Below, piece by piece: positions 3,483 through 17,688 of a stretch of DNA of 21,826 bases (position 1 is the first letter of the stretch; every line of letters starts with the position of its first letter). This DNA is from a virus: the IMG/VR virus record IMGVR_UViG_3300032220_001120, positions 1 through 21,826 of that record; one strand, given 5' to 3'. A program made the translations under genes and the position numbers. The notes under the pieces are model-generated. The model was given only the letters and a program-made list of their open reading frames with translations, had not been told where the DNA came from and made no database searches.

Positions 3483-4292
3483 TTATGTGCCTTGTTGTGC
3501 TGCTGAATTTTCGGTTATCCGACCCAAATAAGGATCATAATCCATATATTCCTTAATATCAATATTAGCCCCGTTCTGTTCCCAGAATTGGGATAAGGCA
3601 TTATAGTTTGCCTTATGAAATGCATCAATATGATCTGGATGAATGGAAGATCCAAGTTCAGTTTTATAAAGAAGAAGAGGAATTGAGTATGTGTTTCCTG
3701 TATTATAAATCAAGTCATCTGCAACAGGACGTGGTTTAACACCGTTATCAAGTTTATACTTATCACCTCTACTATGAAACCTAAGAAGTTTCTCTGCATG
3801 ATGGCGATTAATTAGATAGCAAGCAGTAGAGAAATCATTTACAAATCTCTTGTGCAACTTAACATGAATATCTCCTGTACAGATAATAGCAATTTGTACC
3901 ACATCCCAATCATAAGGAATGTGTGCATAGAAATCATCCCAAGTAAAGTTCCAGAACCTCACCAAATCCAAATTACAATCATCTTCCATGATGATTGCAT
4001 AAGGACTATCAGATGTTTCCATCCAATGTTTAATTGCTTTTAAATGAGAAGTAATGCATCCAATTTCGCCAGAAGTCATCATCTCAGGATATCTTCCAGA
4101 AACAATATCACTCAGATCATCTTCACGCCCATCATATGCAGAGATGCGTGTGTAATTTTCAATCTCCCAATACTTAAATTGATCTTCCATATACTCTTTT
4201 CTTTCTGGTTGACCATCAAGATTTAAGTAATAAATTGGACCAATACCTTTAACTTTATATGCAGATTTATTCCTATCAAATAGTTCAGACAT
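3483..4292 (-). CDS. GT25 family (LPS-type) glycosyltransferase
   Basis: A 269-residue protein with the GT25 motifs in order: YYLNLD and ER at 21-30, RISAYDG at 49-55, GEIGCITSH at 75-83, IMEDD at 101-105 (metal-binding acidic group) and a later DDLIYN. GT25 enzymes add galactose, glucose or related residues to lipooligosaccharide, or to collagen hydroxylysine in animals. I see no membrane segment. It is last gene of the 20-gene glycan operon; the ATG lies 9 nt past the previous stop. The acceptor here is unknown. Confidence 0.88.
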   Translation of the reverse strand: MSELFDRNKSAYKVKGIGPIYYLNLDGQPERKEYMEDQFKYWEIENYTRISAYDGREDDLSDIVSGRYPEMMTSGEIGCITSHLKAIKHWMETSDSPYAIIMEDDCNLDLVRFWNFTWDDFYAHIPYDWDVVQIAIICTGDIHVKLHKRFVNDFSTACYLINRHHAEKLLRFHSRGDKYKLDNGVKPRPVADDLIYNTGNTYSIPLLLYKTELGSSIHPDHIDAFHKANYNALSQFWEQNGANIDIKEYMDYDPYLGRITENSAAQQGT

Positions 4293-4301
4293 AATTAATT
4301 A

Positions 4302-5099
4302 CTATTTTTTAAGATAAACATCATTTAAAAAGTTTTCTGGAACCTTATCCCATAAGGTTGGCATAAAAACTTCTGCTTTACATCCGCCAAACCACCAAGA
4401 ACATTCGGGAAATGTACTACCAAATGTTGCATATAATTTTTTATGACATTGGGATAACAAATACATTTCAATAAATGCTTCTTGAGTTTGTGTAATGTCA
4501 TCCAAACCACCGTCATCTCTGATTACATCAACACTTCTTGGATATGTAATTATTTGATCACTGAATTTATTCACAAAATAATTAGTCACATTAATATTAT
4601 CTGTAGCCAAAAAAATCTTTTGATCTGGACCAAGATTTTCAATCTCTCTTTCATATCCCTCAAAATCTACCCACACACTTCTGCTGCCATCACCGTTTGG
4701 AGGTAGAAAACTTCTAATATTTACCCCCACCATATTATCCTTGTTCCAGTCTTGGGTAAAATCATCTATAATTTTTTTAATTTCTGGTCTAATTTTTATT
4801 TTTTGGAATATTGGCAAATACTTATCAATAAAATATTGTGGAATTTTATTGTAAAATTGATCTATTGTTTTGTAATTATCAATATATTTTTCTTCTTCTT
4901 CATCAACAAGAAGTCTCCAAACTGATCCAGTAGAAGGATACTTTTGAAAGTCTTCTTCTGTTGCCAACTCAAAATTTTCAAACAAATGAATGTCTGTGGG
5001 TTTTTCAATTTTTATAGTTTCATATCTTGCCATATGAGAAACATATGACTTAATTCTATTACCTAAAGCCGCAGATCTTCCAACAACAAATGTACTCAT
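4302..5099 (-). CDS. Fucosyltransferase-like GT-B protein (NodZ/O-FucT style)
   Basis: I take the ATG at 5099, which makes a 4-nt ATGA overlap with the upstream stop as at many junctions here; an upstream ATG at 5123 would intrude 28 nt into that gene. The 265 residues show ALGNRIKS near 11-18, resembling the GLGNRL loop of nucleotide-sugar-binding fucosyltransferases, then VGVNIRS near 131-137 (compare H.R of the donor pocket), LATDN about 30 residues later and a C-terminal ATFGSTFPECSWW, like the S/T-rich end motif of that superfamily. GDP-fucose or a similar GDP sugar is the likely donor. The family call is by motif resemblance only, so it is less certain than its GT11 neighbours. Confidence 0.62.
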   Translation of the reverse strand: MSTFVVGRSAALGNRIKSYVSHMARYETIKIEKPTDIHLFENFELATEEDFQKYPSTGSVWRLLVDEEEEKYIDNYKTIDQFYNKIPQYFIDKYLPIFQKIKIRPEIKKIIDDFTQDWNKDNMVGVNIRSFLPPNGDGSRSVWVDFEGYEREIENLGPDQKIFLATDNINVTNYFVNKFSDQIITYPRSVDVIRDDGGLDDITQTQEAFIEMYLLSQCHKKLYATFGSTFPECSWWFGGCKAEVFMPTLWDKVPENFLNDVYLKK

Positions 5100-5998
5100 T
5101 TCACTAACTCCAATGATACCCATTCTTTAAGATTAACTTTAGGTTCCCATCCAAAAACTGTTTTTATTTTATTATTATCCGCAAGAGTTGTTCTTGCTTC
5201 TCCATCTCGTATGGGTATATTTATATGATTGTCTGAAATCATATGAGCAATTTCATTGATGGAATAATTAAAAGCATTTCCGACATTATATATTTGCCCG
5301 TAATATGCGTCTTCAATATTGGTAATTGCAGAAAGAATATTTGCATTTACAACATCTTGGACATGAACAAAATCTCTACGTTGAAGACCATCACCAACAA
5401 TTGTGAGAGGTTCTCCTGCATTACGTTGACGGAGAAAAATACCAATTACAGGAGCATATTGTCCTGTAGTAGGAGAGCGTTCACCATACACATTAAAGTA
5501 TCTGAAGATAACTGTCTTAAGACCATACAAATTTGTATACATCTTACAGAGTTCTTCTCCAGAAACTTTAGAAACAGAATAAGGATTCAAACAATCATTA
5601 GGGTCAGTTTCTACATTAGGAAATTTATTGAGGCCATACGCAGAAGAGGTTGAAGAATAAATTACCTTCTTAACTCCTGCTTCTCTTGCACACTGAAGAA
5701 CGGTGCAAGTGCCAACAGCATTTTTGTTTACAGCATTAATTGGATTTTCAATAGCAGGTTGAAGTCTAGATTCTGCAGCAAGGTGAAACACATAATCTAC
5801 CTTATCATATAGATCTCTAGTAAACTCATAATCACAAATATCTAGTTTGTGATTATCTGCTTTTAAGTTCCAATAAAACTTCTCATTACAATCTGCAGTC
5901 TCATTGTCAATAACGACAACTTCCCAATTCATATCGACCAATCTGTCTACAAGATTTGATCCAATAAATCCTGCTCCTCCAGTTACAAGTGCTTTCAT
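5096..5998 (-). CDS. NAD-dependent sugar-nucleotide epimerase (extended SDR, GalE/WbpP-like)
   Basis: A 300-residue protein starting MKALVTGGAGFIGSN, the Rossmann NAD-binding loop of extended SDRs. The active site is present: YSSTSSAYG supplies Ser/Thr, and PYSVSK the Tyr-x-x-x-Lys pair. FRYFNVYGERSP and RDFVHVQDV are typical of UDP-glucose/UDP-GlcNAc 4-epimerases. The ATG at 5998 forms an ATGA overlap with the gene before, so the upstream TTG in frame is not needed. It follows the HAD/cytidylyltransferase gene and may act on its nucleotide-sugar product, or may supply UDP- or GDP-galactose-type donors. The substrate cannot be read from sequence. Confidence 0.87.
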   Translation of the reverse strand: MKALVTGGAGFIGSNLVDRLVDMNWEVVVIDNETADCNEKFYWNLKADNHKLDICDYEFTRDLYDKVDYVFHLAAESRLQPAIENPINAVNKNAVGTCTVLQCAREAGVKKVIYSSTSSAYGLNKFPNVETDPNDCLNPYSVSKVSGEELCKMYTNLYGLKTVIFRYFNVYGERSPTTGQYAPVIGIFLRQRNAGEPLTIVGDGLQRRDFVHVQDVVNANILSAITNIEDAYYGQIYNVGNAFNYSINEIAHMISDNHINIPIRDGEARTTLADNNKIKTVFGWEPKVNLKEWVSLELVK

Positions 5999-6717
5999 TT
6001 TAAAGATTCGCAAATTTTATTTTTAAGTTTAGTAGTAGAGTATTCGTGGCTTCTATCAACAAAAACAATACTTATGTCAATATCTTTTCCAGTATAAGAT
6101 CCATCATTATAATCATCACCAAGAAATCTAATGTCATAATCTCCAGACTCAAGATACCAAAGAAAAGTATCTTCAGCCTGATACACAACGATATCATCAA
6201 CGTACCTAATTGCTTTTAGAATTTCTTTTCTTTCTTCAACAGTTTGCACTGGTTTAAGTTTATTTGGTCTTGCAAAAGAAGGATCTTCATGAAGTGCAAC
6301 TGTCAAATGATTACAATGCAATTTAGCATCCTTAAACATACGGATATATCCAGGATGAATTACGTCAAATGCGCCTGCAATAATACCTTTTTTCAGTGGA
6401 ATAGTTTTCTTCCACTCTTCAACATCAATACCTTTATCATCAATAAAAATATCTGCTGTTGGTTTACAAAACATTGGAAATAGTTCGTGGTACTTATACC
6501 CCCAATCATTAAGTTGTTTCGTGGTTAGTTCTGTATGATCAATACCAGATCCCTTTCCCCTAGCAGTTTGCATAATGATATGGTTTCCTTCATCATATAA
6601 GCGATTGACCTGCTCAACCATGAATGGTATTGGTCTGGCATTCAGATAATCAGGTTTTCCCAATTCATTATTAGGTGTGTCACATAAAGTCCCATCAATA
6701 TCAAAACAATAAATCAT
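5995..6717 (-). CDS. HAD phosphatase fused to TagD-like cytidylyltransferase
   Basis: A 240-residue two-domain protein. Residues 1-105 are a HAD phosphatase of the capsule-cluster type: DIDGTLCDT at 6-14 (nucleophile D6, general acid D8), TARG at 51-54, KP at 85-86 and IDDK at 92-95. Residues 108-240 are a nucleotidyltransferase: GAFDVIHPGY at 115-124, VQTVEERKEIL at 157-167, LGDDY at 199-203 and YSTTKL at 226-231, closest to glycerol-3-phosphate cytidylyltransferase. The HxGH motif is HPGY here, its last His replaced by Tyr. The start at 6717 gives an ATGA overlap. Placed after an SIS isomerase and near a GHMP kinase, it could dephosphorylate and then activate a sugar phosphate in a heptose-type path. 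The nucleotide (CTP?) and sugar are inferred. Confidence 0.85.
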   Translation of the reverse strand: MIYCFDIDGTLCDTPNNELGKPDYLNARPIPFMVEQVNRLYDEGNHIIMQTARGKGSGIDHTELTTKQLNDWGYKYHELFPMFCKPTADIFIDDKGIDVEEWKKTIPLKKGIIAGAFDVIHPGYIRMFKDAKLHCNHLTVALHEDPSFARPNKLKPVQTVEERKEILKAIRYVDDIVVYQAEDTFLWYLESGDYDIRFLGDDYNDGSYTGKDIDISIVFVDRSHEYSTTKLKNKICESLK

Positions 6718-7220
6718 ACTACTCCATGAAGAAAGATTTGATGGACACATTCAACAATCCCATAATCCCTACTATCAATATGATAGTCCCATAGAGCAGT
6801 ATTAGCAATACTTCTTGCTTTATTTGTGGCACTAAATCCAGTAAGAATTCCATAGGAAGTTTTATTAAATTCGCACCACTTAATACAATTAAGAATATTC
6901 TTTGATTCTCCACCAGAACTAATTAAAATGCATAAAGTTTCTGGTGTTGCATAATATTCAAGAAACTTTCGATAAGCATTCTCCATTCCAAAATCATTGA
7001 TAAAACAAGTTAACATTGATGGATCAGAAAATACAAGAGAATGCTTATTATGAAACTTTACATAATCTTGAGAAATATGAGAAGCAACAGAATTGCTCCC
7101 ACCATTACCGAGAATGATAATATTTTGATGGGCATTAAATGCAACTTGAAATTTTTCAAATTGCTCTTCAATATGCGCTCCCTGAAGGGCTTCAATATAA
7201 TTCAAAAAGGGATTCATCAT
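6714..7220 (-). CDS. SIS-domain sugar-phosphate isomerase (GmhA-like)
   Basis: A 168-residue single-SIS-domain protein: GNGGS at 39-43 and ASHISQDYVKF after it form the phosphate-binding and active-site start; ISSGGESKN binds phosphate; VECVHQIFLH near the end matches the helix that carries the catalytic His of GmhA. GmhA converts sedoheptulose-7-phosphate to D-glycero-D-manno-heptose-7-phosphate. Against E. coli GmhA the pair of Glu after the His (HFAEE) reads Q-D here, a change also typical, as I recall, of the O-antigen-cluster branch. It lies between a methyltransferase and the HAD/cytidylyltransferase fusion with ATGA overlaps on both sides, and close to a GHMP kinase. The order supports a heptose-type role, but another ketose phosphate is possible. 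Confidence 0.82.
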   Translation of the reverse strand: MMNPFLNYIEALQGAHIEEQFEKFQVAFNAHQNIIILGNGGSNSVASHISQDYVKFHNKHSLVFSDPSMLTCFINDFGMENAYRKFLEYYATPETLCILISSGGESKNILNCIKWCEFNKTSYGILTGFSATNKARSIANTALWDYHIDSRDYGIVECVHQIFLHGVV

Positions 7221-7978
7221 GCTTTCTTCTTAAGGCAGAAATAAATGCTATTGCCCATATCTTGATGGTTACGAAACATTGCATTACCAAAAAGATATCC
7301 AAAAAATACTCCTCTAATATTAGCAACAACTCCTTGAGGTTTTTCTGGATGATGAGGGTGCTCAAGTCCTGCAGGAGCGGCAGGCCAATTTGGATCAATT
7401 GCCAACTCAAATCCATTATCAAAAAGAATATTAATCCACTTTGCTGGATTAAACACTGACTGATGCCTACTAATCAACTTGCCATCAAGATATCCAACAT
7501 CATCACGAACTACTGCAATTGAACAACAAAGAACTCCGTCATCTTTCAAATGATTCTTAATATTACTAAAGAACATTTCAAGATCTTCTTCGGCAATATG
7601 TTCAATAACTTCCCATGTTGTAATCAAATCAAATTCTACTTTTTCGTTCTCATCATACAACTGATAAGGCTTAGTAAGATCTACAGTAAATAAGTTCTTA
7701 TCACCATACCTATCCCAGTTATGCTTTCCTGCACCTTGTTTTCTTGCTAGAGGAGACCCTTCAAGTCCTACTGCATAATCTCCCATTGAAATAAAATCTG
7801 CAATTAGTTGTCCACCAGCACAACCAAGATCCATTACCTTAAGTGGGGACTTTTTAAAATACTTTTTAATTGCCTCAATATATTCAATATCAGTAGTATT
7901 GTCATTTACGGTTCCAACTGGCGCAATATGATCTGGAGAATCTAATGCAGCAGGATAATCTGTTTCTAATCTAATCAT
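7217..7978 (-). CDS. SAM-dependent class I methyltransferase
   Basis: A 253-residue protein with the SAM-binding motif VMDLGCAGG at 48-56, an acidic LEGS loop after it, the conserved TTWEVIEHI and the strand FDLIT before it. It belongs to the Methyltransf_23/11-like small-molecule methyltransferases. The C-terminal third is long, with an unusual HPHHPEKPQG stretch, perhaps for substrate recognition. It is inserted between the GHMP kinase and the SIS isomerase, overlapping both by 4 nt (ATGA). The product may be an O- or C-methylated sugar or a capped glycan end; the acceptor is unknown. Confidence 0.85.
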   Translation of the reverse strand: MIRLETDYPAALDSPDHIAPVGTVNDNTTDIEYIEAIKKYFKKSPLKVMDLGCAGGQLIADFISMGDYAVGLEGSPLARKQGAGKHNWDRYGDKNLFTVDLTKPYQLYDENEKVEFDLITTWEVIEHIAEEDLEMFFSNIKNHLKDDGVLCCSIAVVRDDVGYLDGKLISRHQSVFNPAKWINILFDNGFELAIDPNWPAAPAGLEHPHHPEKPQGVVANIRGVFFGYLFGNAMFRNHQDMGNSIYFCLKKKA

Positions 7979-8922
7979 AATTTTTTACCTTTTACACCAT
8001 CAGGGGATACATTAATTTTAACTGAAGAATACGGTAATGTCAATTTATCCTTTTCTGAAAAGGTTAAAAAGAACCCACCATTACCTGCGCCGCAAAGTTT
8101 GTGTGCAACCACAAGCGGACTATTTAGTAAATATTCATCAATCGTTTTTATCATAGGATTTTCATTAATTGAAGAGCTTGTTTGTTTCTTTTGCTCCCAA
8201 CTTTTGTTTAAATGAAATAAAAATTCATCATAATTTTTTTGAAGAAGGCAATCATATGCGACTTCAAGAGTGTCAAGAAGTGGTGGAATTTTATCAAGAT
8301 TGTCACTTACATCTTTTAATACATTTTTTGAATTTCTTGTTATTCCAGTAAATACTAAATGTGCATCATAATTTTTAAAAAGTTCTGTAGATTGAAAATC
8401 ATATTTTACAATTCCACCTCTTTGAAACTCAATCCTTTTAAATCCACCAATACCACATCCATATGGATCTTGATATCCACAATAAGGATTGAATTCTCTT
8501 TCTAATTGATATGCAAGAGTACAGATCTCAATATCGGTCATATTAAGATCTTTAAACATAGAAACACACTTAATCAAATTGATAAGATATGACGAAGATG
8601 ATGCCAAACCACTTCCTTGAGAATATGCATCACTTGTCATACTCACATTTAAGGGGTGACATCCAAAATGATTTAAAACAACTCTGACCAAATCATTTTG
8701 AATATCGTCAATATATTTTGTTTCTTCACGTTTTGAATAATTTACAATATACTTACCTCCTTGCATATTGTATCCAAACTTATCTTCGTGCAAAGAAATA
8801 TAAGTTTTTAAATCACAAGTAAAACTAATTACAGCACCATATCCATACTTTTCAACAAAGTATGGATTATCTGTTGAACCGCCAAATAAAGAAACCCGAA
8901 GAGGGCAAGAGGAAACATACAT
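7975..8922 (-). CDS. GHMP sugar kinase (HddA-like)
   Basis: A 315-residue kinase with all three GHMP motifs: PLRVSLFGGSTD at 7-18, GSGLASSSS at 103-111 (ATP phosphate loop) and GAGNGGFF at 278-285. The arrangement matches the D-glycero-D-manno-heptose-7-phosphate kinase (HddA) branch, whose N-terminus reads PLRIS(F)xGGGTD; galactokinase and fucokinase are the alternatives. The reaction would be ATP-dependent phosphorylation of a sugar or sugar phosphate at C1. It starts inside the stop of the GT11 gene (TAATG) and ends with an ATGA overlap into a methyltransferase, two genes before the HAD/cytidylyltransferase. With the SIS isomerase it makes three of the classic four steps to an NDP-heptose. 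Confidence 0.82.
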   Translation of the reverse strand: MYVSSCPLRVSLFGGSTDNPYFVEKYGYGAVISFTCDLKTYISLHEDKFGYNMQGGKYIVNYSKREETKYIDDIQNDLVRVVLNHFGCHPLNVSMTSDAYSQGSGLASSSSYLINLIKCVSMFKDLNMTDIEICTLAYQLEREFNPYCGYQDPYGCGIGGFKRIEFQRGGIVKYDFQSTELFKNYDAHLVFTGITRNSKNVLKDVSDNLDKIPPLLDTLEVAYDCLLQKNYDEFLFHLNKSWEQKKQTSSSINENPMIKTIDEYLLNSPLVVAHKLCGAGNGGFFLTFSEKDKLTLPYSSVKINVSPDGVKGKKL

Positions 8923-9779
8923 TAAATTACAATCCAGTTATCTACATAAACATCTTTAGTATCTTTATCAGCATATGCAGGCCCAAACCACATTTTAGGA
9001 GCAACTACTTTTTTGTTTGAATTTTTAATCAACCAAGCACCCCACCAACTCATACTACTATTAGCTATTATAGCATGTGAGCATAAGGACATCAAGCACA
9101 AATCAGAATATGGAGTGTAAGAGCCATCTTCATATTTGTCTACTGGTTCAGAAACAAAAAATCTATCGCTAGCAAAAAATTCTTGTTCATTTACCCATTC
9201 AGGAGAATCAGAAAAAACAATAACAGGTTGATTATCTTCAAACTCTGCAAGTGCTTTTTCATAGTATTCTATTGGTTGAACAGGATGTTGATCCGAACAA
9301 TTCACATATGCCCATTTGAACCCACGAGGATCAACCAGATTTGGATCACCACGGCGGACATGAAGCATGATGGGTTCCTGACCATCAAACTGTTGCATAA
9401 ATTCTTTGCATGGATCCAAATGCTCATCAAGAAATGCAAAATCTTTACAAATCTCATCCGAAATATGTTGAAAATATTTTTCAGATTGAAAAAATCCATG
9501 AAGACTTACATCATCTGGACATTTGTTAAAGAGTTCATCATCAAAATGAAAGAACCTTTCCTGAACATAATTCAAATCTTCACGATAAGCAAGATTATTT
9601 TCCTTTACAGATTCTAATTTAAAGCATTTATGAAGACTATAATTTTCAATCCCCTCCATATCAAATGGAGGAATGCACCATTCATATCCATGCTTTGCAG
9701 CAATCCCACGAACAGTGGCATACTCAAACATTTGATTTCCAAGCCTTCCAAGATTTCCAATATAATTAAATGCTAGCAT
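8922..9779 (-). CDS. GT11 alpha-1,2-fucosyltransferase-like (copy B)
   Basis: A 285-residue protein with the three GT11 peptide motifs: GRLGNQMFEYA at 11-21, HVRRGD at 140-145 (GDP-binding) and FSDSPEW at 189-195, followed by ANSSMSWWGAWL at 239-250. Family members move L-fucose, and in some cases galactose, from a GDP or UDP donor to a sugar 2-OH. It is close kin to the gene at 11341-12126: both continue RGIAAKHGY after the first motif and share GFFQ(S/T)EKYF. No membrane helix. The start overlaps the previous gene by 14 nt. Confidence 0.9.
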   Translation of the reverse strand: MLAFNYIGNLGRLGNQMFEYATVRGIAAKHGYEWCIPPFDMEGIENYSLHKCFKLESVKENNLAYREDLNYVQERFFHFDDELFNKCPDDVSLHGFFQSEKYFQHISDEICKDFAFLDEHLDPCKEFMQQFDGQEPIMLHVRRGDPNLVDPRGFKWAYVNCSDQHPVQPIEYYEKALAEFEDNQPVIVFSDSPEWVNEQEFFASDRFFVSEPVDKYEDGSYTPYSDLCLMSLCSHAIIANSSMSWWGAWLIKNSNKKVVAPKMWFGPAYADKDTKDVYVDNWIVI

Positions 9780-10593: not shown

Positions 10594-11356
10594 TTGGATA
10601 TTCCCAATTCTCAAAAAAATCTTTATGTTTTTCTTGAAGATATTCTAACTCACTTTGAATAAATTGCCAAGCAGATCCATCACCTTCAATGACAATATCA
10701 TATTGAGATTCGAGTTGAGCAGAAACTCTATCATCACGAATTCTACTTGTGGTTAAAATGTCATTCAATATTGCTGGCATTCCATATTTCATTCGCAATT
10801 GATGATACCATTCATGATCAATTCCCATCATAATATTAACATCAAAATAAACTTTTGAATCATTTCTAATCGTAACATTAGTAGGAGCACCTATTAAGTT
10901 ATTACCAACTAAAAGATGATCTGGATACTCTGGTTTTTTATCATTGAAAAAAGTTTTTCCATCATGAGTATGATTAAATCCATTAATTAGCCATTTCTTT
11001 TTTGTAGAATCCAAAGTATTCACAATTTTTTTCAATGCATCAGTATCTACAAAAAAATCATCATGGTGAAGTATTTTAATATATTCACCACAACAATGAT
11101 CCATTACAACATTTGCATTTTTAGTTGGCACTCCTCTTCCATAAAAATTTTTAATATAAACAATTTTCATACGTGAAGAATATTCTTCACATAAATTTAT
11201 TAAATCATTAGATATAGAATGATCAGATACTACAACTTCATAGTCAACAAAAGTTTGAGTTAAAATAGAATCAAAAGATTGTTTAAGATATTGAACTCCT
11301 GCATGATCTTTTGCGTATGCAGGAATTGCAATTGATACCTTTACAGAGTTTTCCAT
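10586..11356 (-). CDS. GT2 family (GT-A) glycosyltransferase
   Basis: A 256-residue protein starting VSIAIPAY at 7-14, followed by SFDSILTQTFVDYEVVVSD, the standard start of inverting GT2 enzymes, and the metal-binding HHDDF at 97-101. After the catalytic core there is a shorter than usual acceptor region, and no membrane helices are seen, so it is a soluble or peripheral enzyme. It starts 16 nt before the stop of the GT11 gene and ends with an 8-nt overlap into the next transferase. GT2 covers many donors, so specificity cannot be given. Confidence 0.87.
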   Translation of the reverse strand: MENSVKVSIAIPAYAKDHAGVQYLKQSFDSILTQTFVDYEVVVSDHSISNDLINLCEEYSSRMKIVYIKNFYGRGVPTKNANVVMDHCCGEYIKILHHDDFFVDTDALKKIVNTLDSTKKKWLINGFNHTHDGKTFFNDKKPEYPDHLLVGNNLIGAPTNVTIRNDSKVYFDVNIMMGIDHEWYHQLRMKYGMPAILNDILTTSRIRDDRVSAQLESQYDIVIEGDGSAWQFIQSELEYLQEKHKDFFENWEYPND

Positions 11357-12126
11357 CTTGCTGGAATCAAATCAGTTGTTTTTACATCTGATGCAGCAGG
11401 CCCATACCATTTCTTAGGAGCAACTACATCATTTGATCCAGATAACCATGCACCCCACCAACTAAATGAACTATTTGCGATGATGTGATGAGAACATAAT
11501 GTCATTAAACACATATCAGAAAGATTCCAACCACTTTCAGATACCATGAATCTATCTGAAGAGAAAAATTTATGGTTCATACACCAAGAAGGATCGTCAG
11601 AAAAAACTAGTACTGGCAGATTATCATCAAACGTTTTAAGTGCTGCATCATAATAATCAAAGTCGCAAGGAGGATGATACTTAGATTTCTCAAGATAATC
11701 AGTTCTCCTGACATGAAGAGAAATAACTTTGTCAAATGTAAAAGCTCTCTTACATGGATTTAATATTGAATCCTTAAATTTAAAATCTTCACGAATACTA
11801 TCTGAAATATTTTCAAAATATTTTTCTGTTTGGAAAAATCCAAATAAACTTACATTGTCTAAACAGTTATTGACATATTCTTCACTATAAACGTGTGAAT
11901 GGTTTTCATCTTCCCTATAATATTCAGAAGAAGCAAATCCTTTGTTCTTTAGATTAGGGAGATCAAATGCTTCATAAAGTTGATGTTGATTCCATTGATC
12001 ATGAAATACTGTTTCTGGAATCATAAAATCATATCCATGTTTAGCAGCAATACCCCTAAGAGCAGCATACTGAAACATTTGATTTCCAAGTCTTCCGTTT
12101 TTTCCTAAGTGGTTGTATCCAATCAT
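11341..12126 (-). CDS. GT11 alpha-1,2-fucosyltransferase-like (copy A)
   Basis: A 261-residue protein. GRLGNQMFQYA at 11-21, HVRRTDY at 138-144, FSDDPSW at 175-181 and ANSSFSWWGAWL are the GT11 motifs. The second motif has Thr where most members have Gly (HxRRGDY), which may alter donor handling though the Arg residues are kept. A GDP-fucose (or GDP-L-galactose) donor is likely; the 3,5-epimerase gene that opens the operon could make the latter. AGAGGA lies about 9 nt before the ATG, one of only three junctions in the operon without overlap. It resembles copy B throughout. Confidence 0.9.
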   Translation of the reverse strand: MIGYNHLGKNGRLGNQMFQYAALRGIAAKHGYDFMIPETVFHDQWNQHQLYEAFDLPNLKNKGFASSEYYREDENHSHVYSEEYVNNCLDNVSLFGFFQTEKYFENISDSIREDFKFKDSILNPCKRAFTFDKVISLHVRRTDYLEKSKYHPPCDFDYYDAALKTFDDNLPVLVFSDDPSWCMNHKFFSSDRFMVSESGWNLSDMCLMTLCSHHIIANSSFSWWGAWLSGSNDVVAPKKWYGPAASDVKTTDLIPARWKTL

Positions 12127-12128
12127 AA

Positions 12129-12833
12129 TTAATCCTCTAATGTAATTCCTGGGGGTAGTCTATAATGAAATCCAAATGGAATAATTCCTTTATTTTCTGA
12201 AACTTCTGTCTCATATGAAAATTTAGCAGCAAGTTCAACATTTGGAAACTTGCATCCTTGTTCAATGAATAGATGGCGATTGTGAACACAAATATTACCA
12301 TCTTCGGCAAAATTATTTGCATTAAAGTGTTTATAGAAATCACCTTTAGTACAATCAAATGGAATTTCTATCTTTAATGGAACTTCTAAAAGTTTTTTAC
12401 TACGAAGAGAGAACCCACCATTTCCAACTCGTATGTGCTCATTAAATGGAGTTAAGTAAGAATTTTCTTGATAAGGCCATGGAGCACCAATATAATCATA
12501 TTCTAAAAACTCATCAGTCCATGCATTTGGATTTATAACAAATGCATGGTCCTGAATAATTAAAACAAAATCCGTTTCTACATGACGATGTAAATCGTAA
12601 AGTATATACTTACTATATTGGTTAATATCCGTAATTGGATATACCATTTCTTCAAGTTCAATACCATCTAACGATAATTCATTAGTATATTTTGATATTA
12701 TCTCATTTGAAGTAACTAACTTTATTGCTCCAAATTTAATATGTTGAGTACTGGTATGAATTGCCTTGATTGTTCCATCTATTCTATTCGTATTATCAAT
12801 AGCAAGTAAAGTTACTCTCGGTAAATTAATCAT
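12129..12833 (-). CDS. DUF5672-type glycosyltransferase-like protein
   Basis: The ATG at 12833 gives 234 residues and an 8-nt overlap with the aminotransferase-like gene; an ATG at 12881 would add a hydrophobic 16 residues read from inside that gene and is rejected. The pattern fits DUF5672: VTLLAID at 7-13, IKFGAIKLVT at 32-41, QDHAFVINPNAW at 94-105, YDYIGAPWP at 112-120 and VGNGGFSLRS at 136-145. This family is placed near GT-A transferases and is common in surface glycan clusters. QDH may replace the DxD metal site (often QDG/QxD in the family). The donor is unknown. Confidence 0.8.
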   Translation of the reverse strand: MINLPRVTLLAIDNTNRIDGTIKAIHTSTQHIKFGAIKLVTSNEIISKYTNELSLDGIELEEMVYPITDINQYSKYILYDLHRHVETDFVLIIQDHAFVINPNAWTDEFLEYDYIGAPWPYQENSYLTPFNEHIRVGNGGFSLRSKKLLEVPLKIEIPFDCTKGDFYKHFNANNFAEDGNICVHNRHLFIEQGCKFPNVELAAKFSYETEVSENKGIIPFGFHYRLPPGITLED

Positions 12834-14139
12834 CTTTGTAAGCATCCATAAAGTTATTAATAATACTATCAATATAATCAATCATTTTATCATTAATTGT
12901 TGGGGAACATCCAAGAAAAAATACTTTATCTAGTACTTTATTTGCCTCTGGATATTTAGATGCATCGTCAAGATGCGAATATCCAGGATGAAGAAGAATA
13001 TTTCCAGCAAAATAATTGCGAGTTTGAATTTTATTTGCTTCAAGATAAGAAACTAAAGATATTTTTAATTTCTTATTATCACAAATAATAGGAACTCCAA
13101 ACCAACTTGTTTCAGATTCCTTTCTTTCATTTACAACTCTAACGCCGGGAATTTTTTCAACAATATTTTGAATCTTAAGTTTATTATTTCTACGAATATT
13201 GTGTATCTCTTCAAACTTAATAAGTTGAACAGAACCAACAGAACCCTGAAGATCAAGGGGCTTTAGATTGTATCCCATATTTGAGAAGACATACTTATGA
13301 TCTACGACATCTTCATAGTTTTCCAACCAAGTATCAAATCTCTTTCCACAAACTCCATTAGAAAGAAGATTTTGTTGACCAACACAATAGCAACCTCTTC
13401 CCCACCAAGCAAAACTACGAGCAAGATCTACAATTTCCTTATTATTTGAAGAAACCATACCACCTTCAATCGTGCAGATATGGTGAGCAGGATAGAAAGA
13501 ACAAGAAGCAGCAATTGCAAAATCAGTTATATATTGCCCATTCCATTTACTACCAAGACTATCACAATTATCTGCAATCAGTTCAATATTATTTGTCTTA
13601 CAGATATCTACAATCTTATCAATGTCATAAGGATTGCCAAGAACCGGAGAAGAAATCACTGCTCTCGTTCTATTAGTAATCTTTGATGCAACTTGCTCCA
13701 AATCCCAATTCAAATCCTCCCAATCAATATCAACAAAGACTGGTTTTAATCCACACTGAGCAATAGGAGCAACTGTAGTAGCAAAACCACAAGCACAAAC
13801 AATAATTTCATCTCCATCTTCCCATCCAAAATACTTTTTAAGAGCAGCAAACATTACAAGGTTAGCAGAACTACCAGAGTTCACCATTACTGAGTGCTTA
13901 AAGTTAAACTTCTTAGAGAATTCATGTTCAAACTTATTGACCTTTTCACCCGAAGATAACCACTTACCTTTCAGCACAGAATAGATTAATTCTCTTGCCT
14001 CAAGATCATCCCAATAAGGGCCAGAATAATAAACACTATCCTTTCCAGCAACAAATTCTTTTTTGTTTGCTATGAAAGGAAAAATATCAGTATCAATCTC
14101 TTTTGCAGATTGAATAAAGCTATCAATTAATTGGTACAT
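12826..14139 (-). CDS. rfbH: RfbH-type 3-dehydrase of 3,6-dideoxyhexose synthesis
   Basis: A 437-residue member of the DegT/DnrJ/EryC1/StrS fold. The normal PLP Lys is replaced by His: FYPAHH at 215-220 with H220, followed by IEGGMV. That, and four Cys at 192, 250, 252 and 264 (in DNCDS, GCYC and VCGKRF), mark CDP-4-keto-6-deoxyglucose-3-dehydrase (E1; RfbH/DdhC/AscC), a PMP and [2Fe-2S] enzyme that removes the 3-OH of the sugar with electrons from a reductase. DHKYVFSNMGYNLKPLD is also typical. E1 is described with Cys spaced 57, 1 and 7 residues apart; here it is 57, 1 and 11. No reductase partner (E3) is in this window. The start overlaps the previous gene by 13 nt. Confidence 0.87.
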   Translation of the reverse strand: MYQLIDSFIQSAKEIDTDIFPFIANKKEFVAGKDSVYYSGPYWDDLEARELIYSVLKGKWLSSGEKVNKFEHEFSKKFNFKHSVMVNSGSSANLVMFAALKKYFGWEDGDEIIVCACGFATTVAPIAQCGLKPVFVDIDWEDLNWDLEQVASKITNRTRAVISSPVLGNPYDIDKIVDICKTNNIELIADNCDSLGSKWNGQYITDFAIAASCSFYPAHHICTIEGGMVSSNNKEIVDLARSFAWWGRGCYCVGQQNLLSNGVCGKRFDTWLENYEDVVDHKYVFSNMGYNLKPLDLQGSVGSVQLIKFEEIHNIRRNNKLKIQNIVEKIPGVRVVNERKESETSWFGVPIICDNKKLKISLVSYLEANKIQTRNYFAGNILLHPGYSHLDDASKYPEANKVLDKVFFLGCSPTINDKMIDYIDSIINNFMDAYKDD

Positions 14140-15649: not shown

Positions 15650-16729
15650 CTATTCTCCTAAAATTCTTTTTTGAAATTGAAACTGATTTAATAAATTTTG
15701 CAATGCTTGAGTTTTAATTTGATTGTATTGAACTCCAATATCACCTTTCATCCAAGGGAGAGTATTGCTAGCATTTTTATAATGAAAAATAAATGCATCC
15801 TGAAGAAGATTATCGTCAGTTTCAAACTTTAGAAAATCAACAAACGTTGGTTTAGGGAAATTATTTTCTCCAGCAACTTTCATGATTGTATCAAAGTTAT
15901 TATATGCATATTCCCAATAGTTTTCTCTTTCCTTTTGATGAGGGAATGTTCTTAGATTAGATTCTTGATAGTCTCTAATATTAACTTCTCCCCGATCAAA
16001 ATCAGCAAACATTTGAGCGCACCCGTTTAAACTAATTTCATATGGGGGATTAATATCAACGAGAACTCCCCACTGATCAATGTACTTAGTTTTCAGTTTA
16101 TCTTCATATTTTTGAAGATAATGATAAACTTCGCCACCAACATCAACAGCAATATTCTTAACTTCACCATATCCCCAACTAATTTCTTCGGGATTTGGCA
16201 TCTCATATGGTTTAGCCATCACAAGACCATTCCAGGGATATTTAAATGCTATGTTTCCCCTATTATTTTCATCTTTATATTGATTGGTATATCTATATGA
16301 TGGAACATATGCAAAGTTATGTTCTGCCATTTCTTCATTCAAAGAAATATCTCTAATAAAAAACATATCAGAATCAATAATGACTGATAGACAATCATTC
16401 TTTGCGATATAATTTTTCCATCCCCAGGTATATGAATATGCACAAGCAATGTTTCCATTAAGGTAACTATCACCATCGAACATTTTTACACCATTCATAT
16501 ATTGAAGTTCTGGGTCCAATTCTACACGAATGCATTGAATGCCCAGACTTTCACATATATCATTAATTTGACCTATTTTATTTTCATCAAATCCACCATC
16601 TCCACCTGGTCTTTCATTATTAAAGACAATAAACTCATAGTCATCCTTAACGTGACGTTTGATTGCCTCATACTGAAGTTTGATAAAATCAGGACGGTTA
16701 TGAGAGTAAGTGTAAATTTTCATGATCAT
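15650..16729 (-). CDS. GT-A type glycosyltransferase-like protein
   Basis: A 359-residue protein, the longest transferase candidate here. MKIYTYSHNRPDF at its start and VIIDSDMFFIRD at 117-127 (a DxD site on a buried strand) are as in GT-A nucleotide-sugar enzymes; between them ACAYSYTWGWKNYI resembles the donor-loop helix of that fold. A C-terminal HYKNASN may carry a metal-binding His. I cannot assign a CAZy family by eye. The ATG at 16729 makes an ATGA overlap; a second ATG two codons later is also possible. No membrane helices are seen. Confidence 0.7.
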   Translation of the reverse strand: MIMKIYTYSHNRPDFIKLQYEAIKRHVKDDYEFIVFNNERPGGDGGFDENKIGQINDICESLGIQCIRVELDPELQYMNGVKMFDGDSYLNGNIACAYSYTWGWKNYIAKNDCLSVIIDSDMFFIRDISLNEEMAEHNFAYVPSYRYTNQYKDENNRGNIAFKYPWNGLVMAKPYEMPNPEEISWGYGEVKNIAVDVGGEVYHYLQKYEDKLKTKYIDQWGVLVDINPPYEISLNGCAQMFADFDRGEVNIRDYQESNLRTFPHQKERENYWEYAYNNFDTIMKVAGENNFPKPTFVDFLKFETDDNLLQDAFIFHYKNASNTLPWMKGDIGVQYNQIKTQALQNLLNQFQFQKRILGE

Positions 16730-17688
16730 TTTCCTCTATAAAATTCATTATTTTTTTTATATTCCTGATATTCAGATTTGCAGTCACTTCCAATCATTAG
16801 ATTACCATCGCGGTCTAACCAATTCCATTCGTCAACAATTGAATCGTCAGGCCTCCACCATCCATCAGATATTTTCCAATCAAACCAATACTTAGGAGCA
16901 ATAACTGAGCAATCTTTATTTGTCCAAACAGGCCAAAATGCAAATGTAGATGAAGAAATAATAGCATTTTTAGCAGTATTAAGAATAGAATAATCAACTC
17001 CAACTGGACCGCCAGGATACCTATACCACCCTATACTTCCCTGATATGGATCCTTTTCATCCATCAAAGCAGATCCTACAACTTCTGCAAATGGAATAAA
17101 CTTCATTGCATGTTCTGCATCATCAGTTACAACAACAAACTTCATATTTGGATTTTTTTCTCGCATTCTAAATGCAGCATTATGATAATATTCTGGAGGA
17201 ACCCAAGATGCTCCAGTCAAATAATCACCACCACGAAATTGAATTACGCAAATGTCATCGGAAGAATAATCAGTGATTTTATTATCATATTGTAACCAAT
17301 CAATGATTTTATCACGCTTATCATTGATATAAGACATCTTTTGAAAGCACCCTTCAATCTTAGTATTATCCTGAAGATTGTCCCAAAGATTTTTATCAAA
17401 AAACATTGCATCGTGTCCTCCCATATGTGGGGGATATGGATCTATACGTTCTTTGTAATAATTAAGAATTCCATCTGGAAGACTTGTAGGAGGACCTCCC
17501 TCTGGGCCCGTTCCTCCATTGACTTCTTCACCAAAATAAAAATCCTTCATAAAGGCACATGCCTTAAATGGATTTGATTTTTTTACTCCCCACTTATATC
17601 CATGACGGTCAGCAACAATTCTAGGAACAATAAGATTCCATAATTGATTACCAAGTCCAGATCCACTATAAATTTCAGAAACAATCAT
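16726..17688 (-). CDS. GT11-like (fucosyltransferase-related) protein
   Basis: A 320-residue protein with a diverged GT11 plan: SGLGNQLWN at 10-18, QFRGGDY at 150-156, VVTDD at 186-190 and IISSSTFAFWPVW at 243-255, aligning with the GLGNQMF, HxRRGDY, FSDD and NSSFSWWGAW blocks of the two closer GT11 copies. The first Arg of HxRR is missing (QFRGG), so donor choice may differ. An insert at 55-95 is rich in Gly and Pro. It overlaps both neighbours by 4 nt (ATGA). GDP-fucose or GDP-L-galactose is the inferred donor. Confidence 0.78.
   Translation of the reverse strand: MIVSEIYSGSGLGNQLWNLIVPRIVADRHGYKWGVKKSNPFKACAFMKDFYFGEEVNGGTGPEGGPPTSLPDGILNYYKERIDPYPPHMGGHDAMFFDKNLWDNLQDNTKIEGCFQKMSYINDKRDKIIDWLQYDNKITDYSSDDICVIQFRGGDYLTGASWVPPEYYHNAAFRMREKNPNMKFVVVTDDAEHAMKFIPFAEVVGSALMDEKDPYQGSIGWYRYPGGPVGVDYSILNTAKNAIISSSTFAFWPVWTNKDCSVIAPKYWFDWKISDGWWRPDDSIVDEWNWLDRDGNLMIGSDCKSEYQEYKKNNEFYRGK

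Follow-up and report, generated by a model that had tools for sequence, protein, structure and literature searches.

In this study, we analysed a set of sugar-pathway genes on the 21,826-base IMG/VR virus record IMGVR_UViG_3300032220_001120 (hereafter the window, meaning this whole stretch of DNA). The window is a fragment of a T4-like cyanophage and carries the gene set, which we refer to as the cassette, within a glycan island; its nearest named records are Synechococcus phages and marine virus contigs, and the T4 major capsid gene gp23 is present in four of the five large records that carry the cassette. At positions 5995–8922, the minus strand has four overlapping genes. Their products are a GHMP kinase, a methyltransferase, a SIS isomerase and a fusion of a HAD domain with a cytidylyltransferase-like domain, and an SDR gene comes next. 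A first-pass annotation had placed these genes here and had described them as a heptose-type cassette; all open reading frames (ORFs) were recovered at these minus-strand coordinates and the domain calls agree. From gene content, conserved gene order, motif conservation, purifying selection and the predicted folds of the isomerase and the fusion, we conclude that the finding is real and that the chemistry proposed for it is broadly right, with heptose as the most likely candidate sugar.

About 110 loci were retrieved from IMG/VR when the kinase and the fusion were used as queries. When loci cut by a contig end are left out, 98 complete ones remain, some contigs being represented twice, and in all 98 the kinase, the isomerase, the HAD-transferase fusion and the SDR are found together. 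The cassette is under purifying selection: when each gene of the window is compared with two relatives, the kinase has a ratio of non-synonymous to synonymous substitution rates (dN/dS) of about 0.05, the isomerase one of 0.07–0.15 and the fusion one of 0.08–0.17. Since the set is intact in every complete locus and its dN/dS values are this low (0.05–0.17), the cassette is not a chance grouping. Four-base ATGA overlaps are present at the kinase/methyltransferase, methyltransferase/isomerase, isomerase/fusion and fusion/SDR junctions. The overlap of the isomerase stop with the fusion is found in 112 of 114 loci, and for this reason the fusion gene (5995–6717, minus strand; longest ORF 5995–6750) probably starts at Met12 (base 6717) and not at 6750, which agrees with the disorder of the first ten residues of the fusion model. 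The start of the SDR gene is probably at 5998. The class I S-adenosylmethionine methyltransferase (7217–7978, minus strand), which had been described as packed with the set, is so in the window, but it is an optional accessory: it is present in 31 of the 98 complete loci and missing from 67, is absent from the isolate SynMITS9220M01, the host copies and locus L013, and in locus L002 is swapped for one with 37% identity.

The kinase (7975–8922, minus strand; 315 aa) is predicted to be an anomeric (1-)kinase, and its HddA-like identity is well supported. It matches GHMP_kinases_N at 2.7e-08, and its best NCBIfam model is HddA (7.6e-25, 88 bits), ahead of fucokinase (56 bits) and mevalonate kinase (38 bits); though the best of all models, the score of 88 bits is under the HddA equivalog cut-off of 600 bits (NF049969). 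The best PDB matches are the heptokinase structures 3k85, 4n3o and 4usk. It has been reported that the WcbL mutants R13A, D22A, S118A/S119A/S120A, Q162L and D163A are all inactive (PMC4691232), and the corresponding residues of the window kinase, R9, D18, S108–S110, Q151 and D152, show no variation across 20 sequences.

The isomerase (6714–7220, minus strand; 168 aa) is a GmhA-like SIS sugar-phosphate isomerase with a predicted metal site of H48-D52-E157-H165. According to its AlphaFold model (predicted local distance difference test score (pLDDT) of 88.8), it has a GmhA-class SIS fold; Foldseek matches 1–37 are all GmhA or DiaA, with template modelling (TM) scores (query) of 0.66–0.88. It matches the GmhA models at about 1e-12, under their cut-offs, and falls short of the Pfam SIS_2 cut-off (15.8 versus 27 bits). 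The GNGGS and NDFG signatures as well as H48 and H165 are retained. In Burkholderia pseudomallei GmhA, the zinc ligands H64, E68, Q175 and H183 have been described as completely conserved (PMC5705639). Upon alignment with E. coli GmhA (H61, E65, Q172 and H180), the window isomerase has H48, D52, E157 and H165 at these positions, and all four are invariant in its relatives. It would seem that the protein works like GmhA, yet without one stated defining feature of GmhA. The isomerase of the Caulobacter phage Cr30 has the same D/E pattern and likewise lies next to an HddA-like kinase. In a Cyanobiaceae operon (L153:7642–10522), the first gene encodes an H-D-E-H GmhA-like isomerase, the next an HddA-like kinase and the third an HddC-like and GmhB-like fusion, whose halves score 83 bits (HddC) and 86 bits (GmhB), both below cut-offs. 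This operon has all four canonical heptose activities and, more than any other single finding, argues that D/E isomerases take part in a heptose route; because it combines such an isomerase with these two partners, we favour heptose over pentose.

The HAD phosphatase domain of the fusion (6403–6717, minus strand) is AfhF-like and has DxDGT, TARG and DDK motifs. It matches the solved structure 9iqw at 9.5e-11 with 34–36% identity, which has been deposited as the D-arabinose-1,5-diphosphate (bisphosphate) phosphatase AfhF of phage HY126. The recorded substrate of AfhF is a sugar 1,5-bisphosphate, which makes its reaction comparable in kind to the one proposed here. The domain suggests removal of the far phosphate from a sugar 1,n-bisphosphate, with the sugar itself not indicated. 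RB69p051 (L167:7709–8095) belongs to the same HAD family and matches the profile of the domain at 3.6e-22. In RB69p051, PHROG 1238 and many phage records, a lone HAD phosphatase is labelled phosphoheptose isomerase, a name that is wrong for a lone HAD. In two Cyanobiaceae islands (L154:9227–10153 and L155:9057–9977), an AfhF-like HAD is fused to a canonical GmhA-type isomerase, and such fusions may be the source of the misnaming. We did not count them as evidence that the HAD domain acts in heptose synthesis, since the L154 fusion lies beside NeuB-like and PseF-like genes, and the isomerases have the canonical H-E pattern.

The second domain of the fusion (6001–6396, minus strand) is a TagD/HldE-C-like nucleotidyltransferase. 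It belongs to CTP_transf_like (4e-10) and not to the HddC-type NTP_transferase family (PF00483), and its best structural matches are TagD (1coz, 2b7l), next HldC (5xf2). His132, Arg174, Asp213, Arg233 and STTK are retained. The HxGH motif reads HPGY, with Tyr135 for the second His, in 84 of the 84 sequences of the group, whereas stand-alone and HldE-like relatives keep the His. With respect to the TagD signature RTEGISTTK, Arg233 is invariant, STTK is kept in the window and the middle differs. Arg233 corresponds to TagD Arg113, is absent from E. coli HldE and is present also in P-SSM2-type transferases; it gives a weak hint that the nucleotide may be cytidine triphosphate (CTP). In the 595-kb phage LR756511 (L157:9971–12880), a GHMP kinase and the same HPGY transferase are fused in a 463-aa ORF and the same SDR comes next. 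Fusions thus join cassette modules, the HAD and the transferase in the window and the kinase and the HPGY transferase in LR756511.

The SDR (5096–5998, minus strand; longest ORF 5096–6013) is a GalE-like extended SDR and a probable nucleoside diphosphate (NDP)-sugar epimerase or oxidoreductase. The first-pass annotation had suggested that it could epimerise the product, which agrees with this assignment as long as an HldD-type heptose epimerase is not meant: GalE-like structures and models outscore HldD, and a Thr is found at the position aligned with the catalytic lysine of the heptose 6-epimerase HldD, which we take to be Lys178. HldD was rejected on these two grounds, and the heptose 6-epimerase label that a phage homologue of this SDR received in 2020 is not supported by the sequence. 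By analogy with GalE, the enzyme would be a C4-directed epimerase or an oxidoreductase.

Taken together, we consider that the cassette encodes a nucleotide-sugar pathway with heptose as the most likely sugar, with a probability of roughly 0.58. We infer the reaction order, the seven-carbon substrate, the nucleotide and the final acceptor as follows. The SIS isomerase, with a metal held by H48, D52, E157 and H165, would convert a ketose phosphate into an aldose phosphate; the most likely substrate is sedoheptulose 7-phosphate, which the pentose phosphate pathway or the Calvin cycle would supply. The HddA-type kinase would then place a phosphate on the anomeric hydroxyl, in the alpha configuration if it acts as WcbL does, and so yield the 1,7-bisphosphate, from which the HAD domain would take off the terminal phosphate, and the fused TagD-like domain would join the 1-phosphate to a nucleotide, perhaps cytidine monophosphate from CTP. 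The GalE-like SDR may epimerise or oxidise the resulting NDP-sugar, with decoration by the methyltransferase in some phages, and neighbouring glycosyltransferases would finally put the sugar onto a glycan of the infected cell or the virion.

A number of observations weigh against heptose. All of the cassette enzymes score below the curated cut-offs for heptose enzymes. Two of the four GmhA zinc ligands are changed in the isomerase (E68 to D52 and Q175 to E157), and V45 takes the place of the GmhA channel residue D61, whose loss leaves 6% activity. The HAD domain is not a GmhB, as no GmhB model (HAD-IIIA/histidinol-phosphatase type) matched it, and the only solved structure close to it is that of an enzyme acting on arabinose. 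Given Tyr135 in place of the second His, catalysis by the transferase domain should be regarded as unproven. The L-fucokinase also has a Q-D pair at the position of kinase Q151/D152, which is therefore no proof of heptose; Q151 sets the kinase apart from galactokinase but not from L-fucokinase, and it is weakened as a heptose marker. In the whole LR756511 record, no isomerase of the window family was found beside the kinase, transferase and SDR. Furthermore, according to a review, heptoses and 3-deoxy-D-manno-octulosonic acid (Kdo) are absent from cyanobacterial lipopolysaccharide (LPS) (PMC4390846), and hence there is no known host acceptor for heptose. Of the cassette as first described, the HddA-like kinase is well supported, and so is the succession of isomerase, anomeric kinase, phosphatase and nucleotidyltransferase steps, but the HAD is not GmhB, the transferase is not HddC and the isomerase has an altered metal site. 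The cassette is therefore an enzyme mosaic and not a copy of a known heptose route.

As a more specific and quite tentative proposal, the cassette might represent a third way of heptose activation, in which an HddA-type alpha-kinase, a fusion of an AfhF-type phosphatase and a TagD-type HPGY transferase, and an H-D-E-H variant of GmhA produce CDP-heptose, in place of the GDP or ADP form, which is then epimerised; this way would be common to T4-like cyanophages and some Prochlorococcus.

We think it unlikely that the product is an activated pentose such as NDP-D-arabinose, made from ribulose 5-phosphate by way of arabinose 5-phosphate, the 1,5-bisphosphate and arabinose 1-phosphate, in analogy to the supply for DNA arabinosylation in RB69-like phages. 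This would be consistent with AfhF of HY126 as the only close solved relative of the HAD domain, with the profile match of RB69p051, which lies in an RB69 gene region that has been linked to DNA arabinosylation (PMC6024577; PMC13390438), and with the departure of the isomerase from GmhA at catalytic positions. However, the RB69 arabinose-5-phosphate isomerase p055 as well as p052 and p053 match none of the isomerase, kinase and transferase profiles of the window at E = 10, whereas E. coli GmhA matches the isomerase profile at 4.6e-13. In addition, the kinase is HddA-type, the cassette is located among surface-glycan glycosyltransferases, whereas the RB69 genes are beside the DNA polymerase, and it is also found in Prochlorococcus chromosomes. 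A whole RB69-type arabinose pathway was rejected, and arabinose is the less likely reading because only the HAD is shared with the RB69 set.

Slightly less probable again is a salvage-like role in which the kinase, the transferase and the SDR together handle a free or host-made hexose or 6-deoxyhexose, like the fucokinase/guanylyltransferase FKP, and the isomerase and the HAD serve a different or earlier step. LR756511, where the kinase-transferase fusion and the SDR are present but the isomerase is missing, would fit such a unit, as would the secondary similarity of the kinase to FKP and the three family 11 glycosyltransferase genes in the window, a family that includes fucosyltransferases. 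Against this, the isomerase and the HAD stand between kinase and SDR in every one of the 98 complete loci from cyanophages and hosts, with overlapping gene ends, and the HddA model scores 32 bits above fucokinase. Least probable of all, the HPGY domain could be inactive or differently used, so that the pathway ends at a sugar 1-phosphate or takes a host transferase, in line with the replaced second catalytic His in all 84 sequences, but the first His, Arg174, Asp213, Arg233 and STTK are kept, purifying selection is seen, and the domain has two different fusion partners in different phages.

The same four core genes are carried by the Prochlorococcus single-cell genomes L037, L038 and L040, with the L037 island adjoining cbiB, ilvC and clpP, and all four are also present in a 1.94-Mb single-contig genome (L147) and a 581-kb contig (L148). 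A high-score copy of the window-type isomerase was found in 5 of 400 Cyanobiaceae genomes. In a five-domain tree, the host copies form a single clade apart from all viral ones (support 0.99–1.0), which does not support a recent capture from a host; a single old exchange between phage and host, in either direction, fits best. A search for gp23 in the genomes behind L037–L043 found none, which is consistent with chromosomal islands and not informative alone. The contig L039 (PBYV01000054.1), which was assigned to an Acidimicrobiaceae bin and also has the cassette, is placed within the viral clade and is probably of viral origin. Near the distant bacterial HddA relatives L041–L047, a large class, other cassette parts were not found.

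The surrounding island encodes glycosyltransferases of families 2, 11, 17 and 25, more SDRs and an RfbH-like protein. A family 11 glycosyltransferase directly upstream of the kinase (8922–9779, minus strand) and a family 25 glycosyltransferase downstream of the SDR (3483–4292, minus strand) are candidate users of the product; the former is kept at this position only among close relatives and the latter is retained in most related loci. The other two family 11 genes are at 11341–12126 and 16726–17688, the last just under the Pfam cut-off. The RfbH-like protein (12826–14139; 370 bits, below the cut-off of 423) suggests a deoxy- or aminosugar derived from a CDP- or other NDP-sugar, and neither RfbF nor RfbG was recognised within the window. 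The adjacent phage lysozyme (1570–2235) and C39-like peptidase (2250–2930) have a common N-terminal stretch of about 48 residues (DLHNFFKYYDEKN...), which is perhaps a shared targeting domain.

If the product is a heptose, then cyanophages of a common marine group, along with some Prochlorococcus, would make a sugar that has been reported absent from cyanobacterial LPS, and would do so from a central carbon intermediate through an uncharacterised combination of enzymes. This would bear on how cyanophages remodel the glycans of their hosts or virions. The analysis also flags two misleading annotations, namely the lone HAD as phosphoheptose isomerase (PHROG 1238 and many phage records) and the SDR as heptose epimerase.

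LPS-related genes have been described in marine myophages (PMC7029224), and in the part of the literature searched, we came across no account of the HAD-transferase fusion or of the D/E isomerase and HPGY groups. The closest system is that of the Synechococcus phage SynMITS9220M01 (MT408532), which has the kinase, isomerase, fusion and SDR in the same order, with 63, 63, 71 and 63% identity, respectively. Its kinase, isomerase and SDR were named heptose-related LPS genes in 2020 (PMC7378029); the phage differs in that it lacks the methyltransferase, and there the fusion is annotated as hypothetical and the SDR as heptose 6-epimerase. With these genes named and the core present in about 100 IMG/VR loci, the earlier view that such a set would be unusual for a phage is only partly right. 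TagD, a glycerol-3-phosphate cytidylyltransferase (1coz, 2b7l), shares STTK and the Arg113 position with the transferase domain, which differs in the Tyr for the second His of HxGH and in its fusion to a HAD. The phage HY126 AfhF and the RB69 arabinose cluster (9iqw; PMC6024577, PMC13390438) share the HAD domain, but these clusters use other isomerase, kinase and transferase families (a GutQ-type isomerase and an ORF53_52-type protein) and are tied to DNA modification. The HldE-based ADP-heptose pathway of E. coli and the related genes of P-SSM2, S-CAM1 and S-CAM3 have the CTP_transf_like transferase domain in common with the cassette; related genes for the HAD and the transferase are found in P-SSM2 and S-CAM3, and no match to a GmhA-like gene was found in the stretches of these two phages that were examined. 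Compared with the HldE pathway, the cassette has a GHMP kinase in place of a PfkB kinase and HPGY in place of HPGH/HAGH. Lastly, the system described in PMC10680097 has the same order of activities, an HddA-type kinase and the GmhA fold, whereas the cassette is set apart from it by the H-D-E-H isomerase site, a HAD other than GmhB, a TagD-like transferase in place of HddC and an SDR that is always attached.

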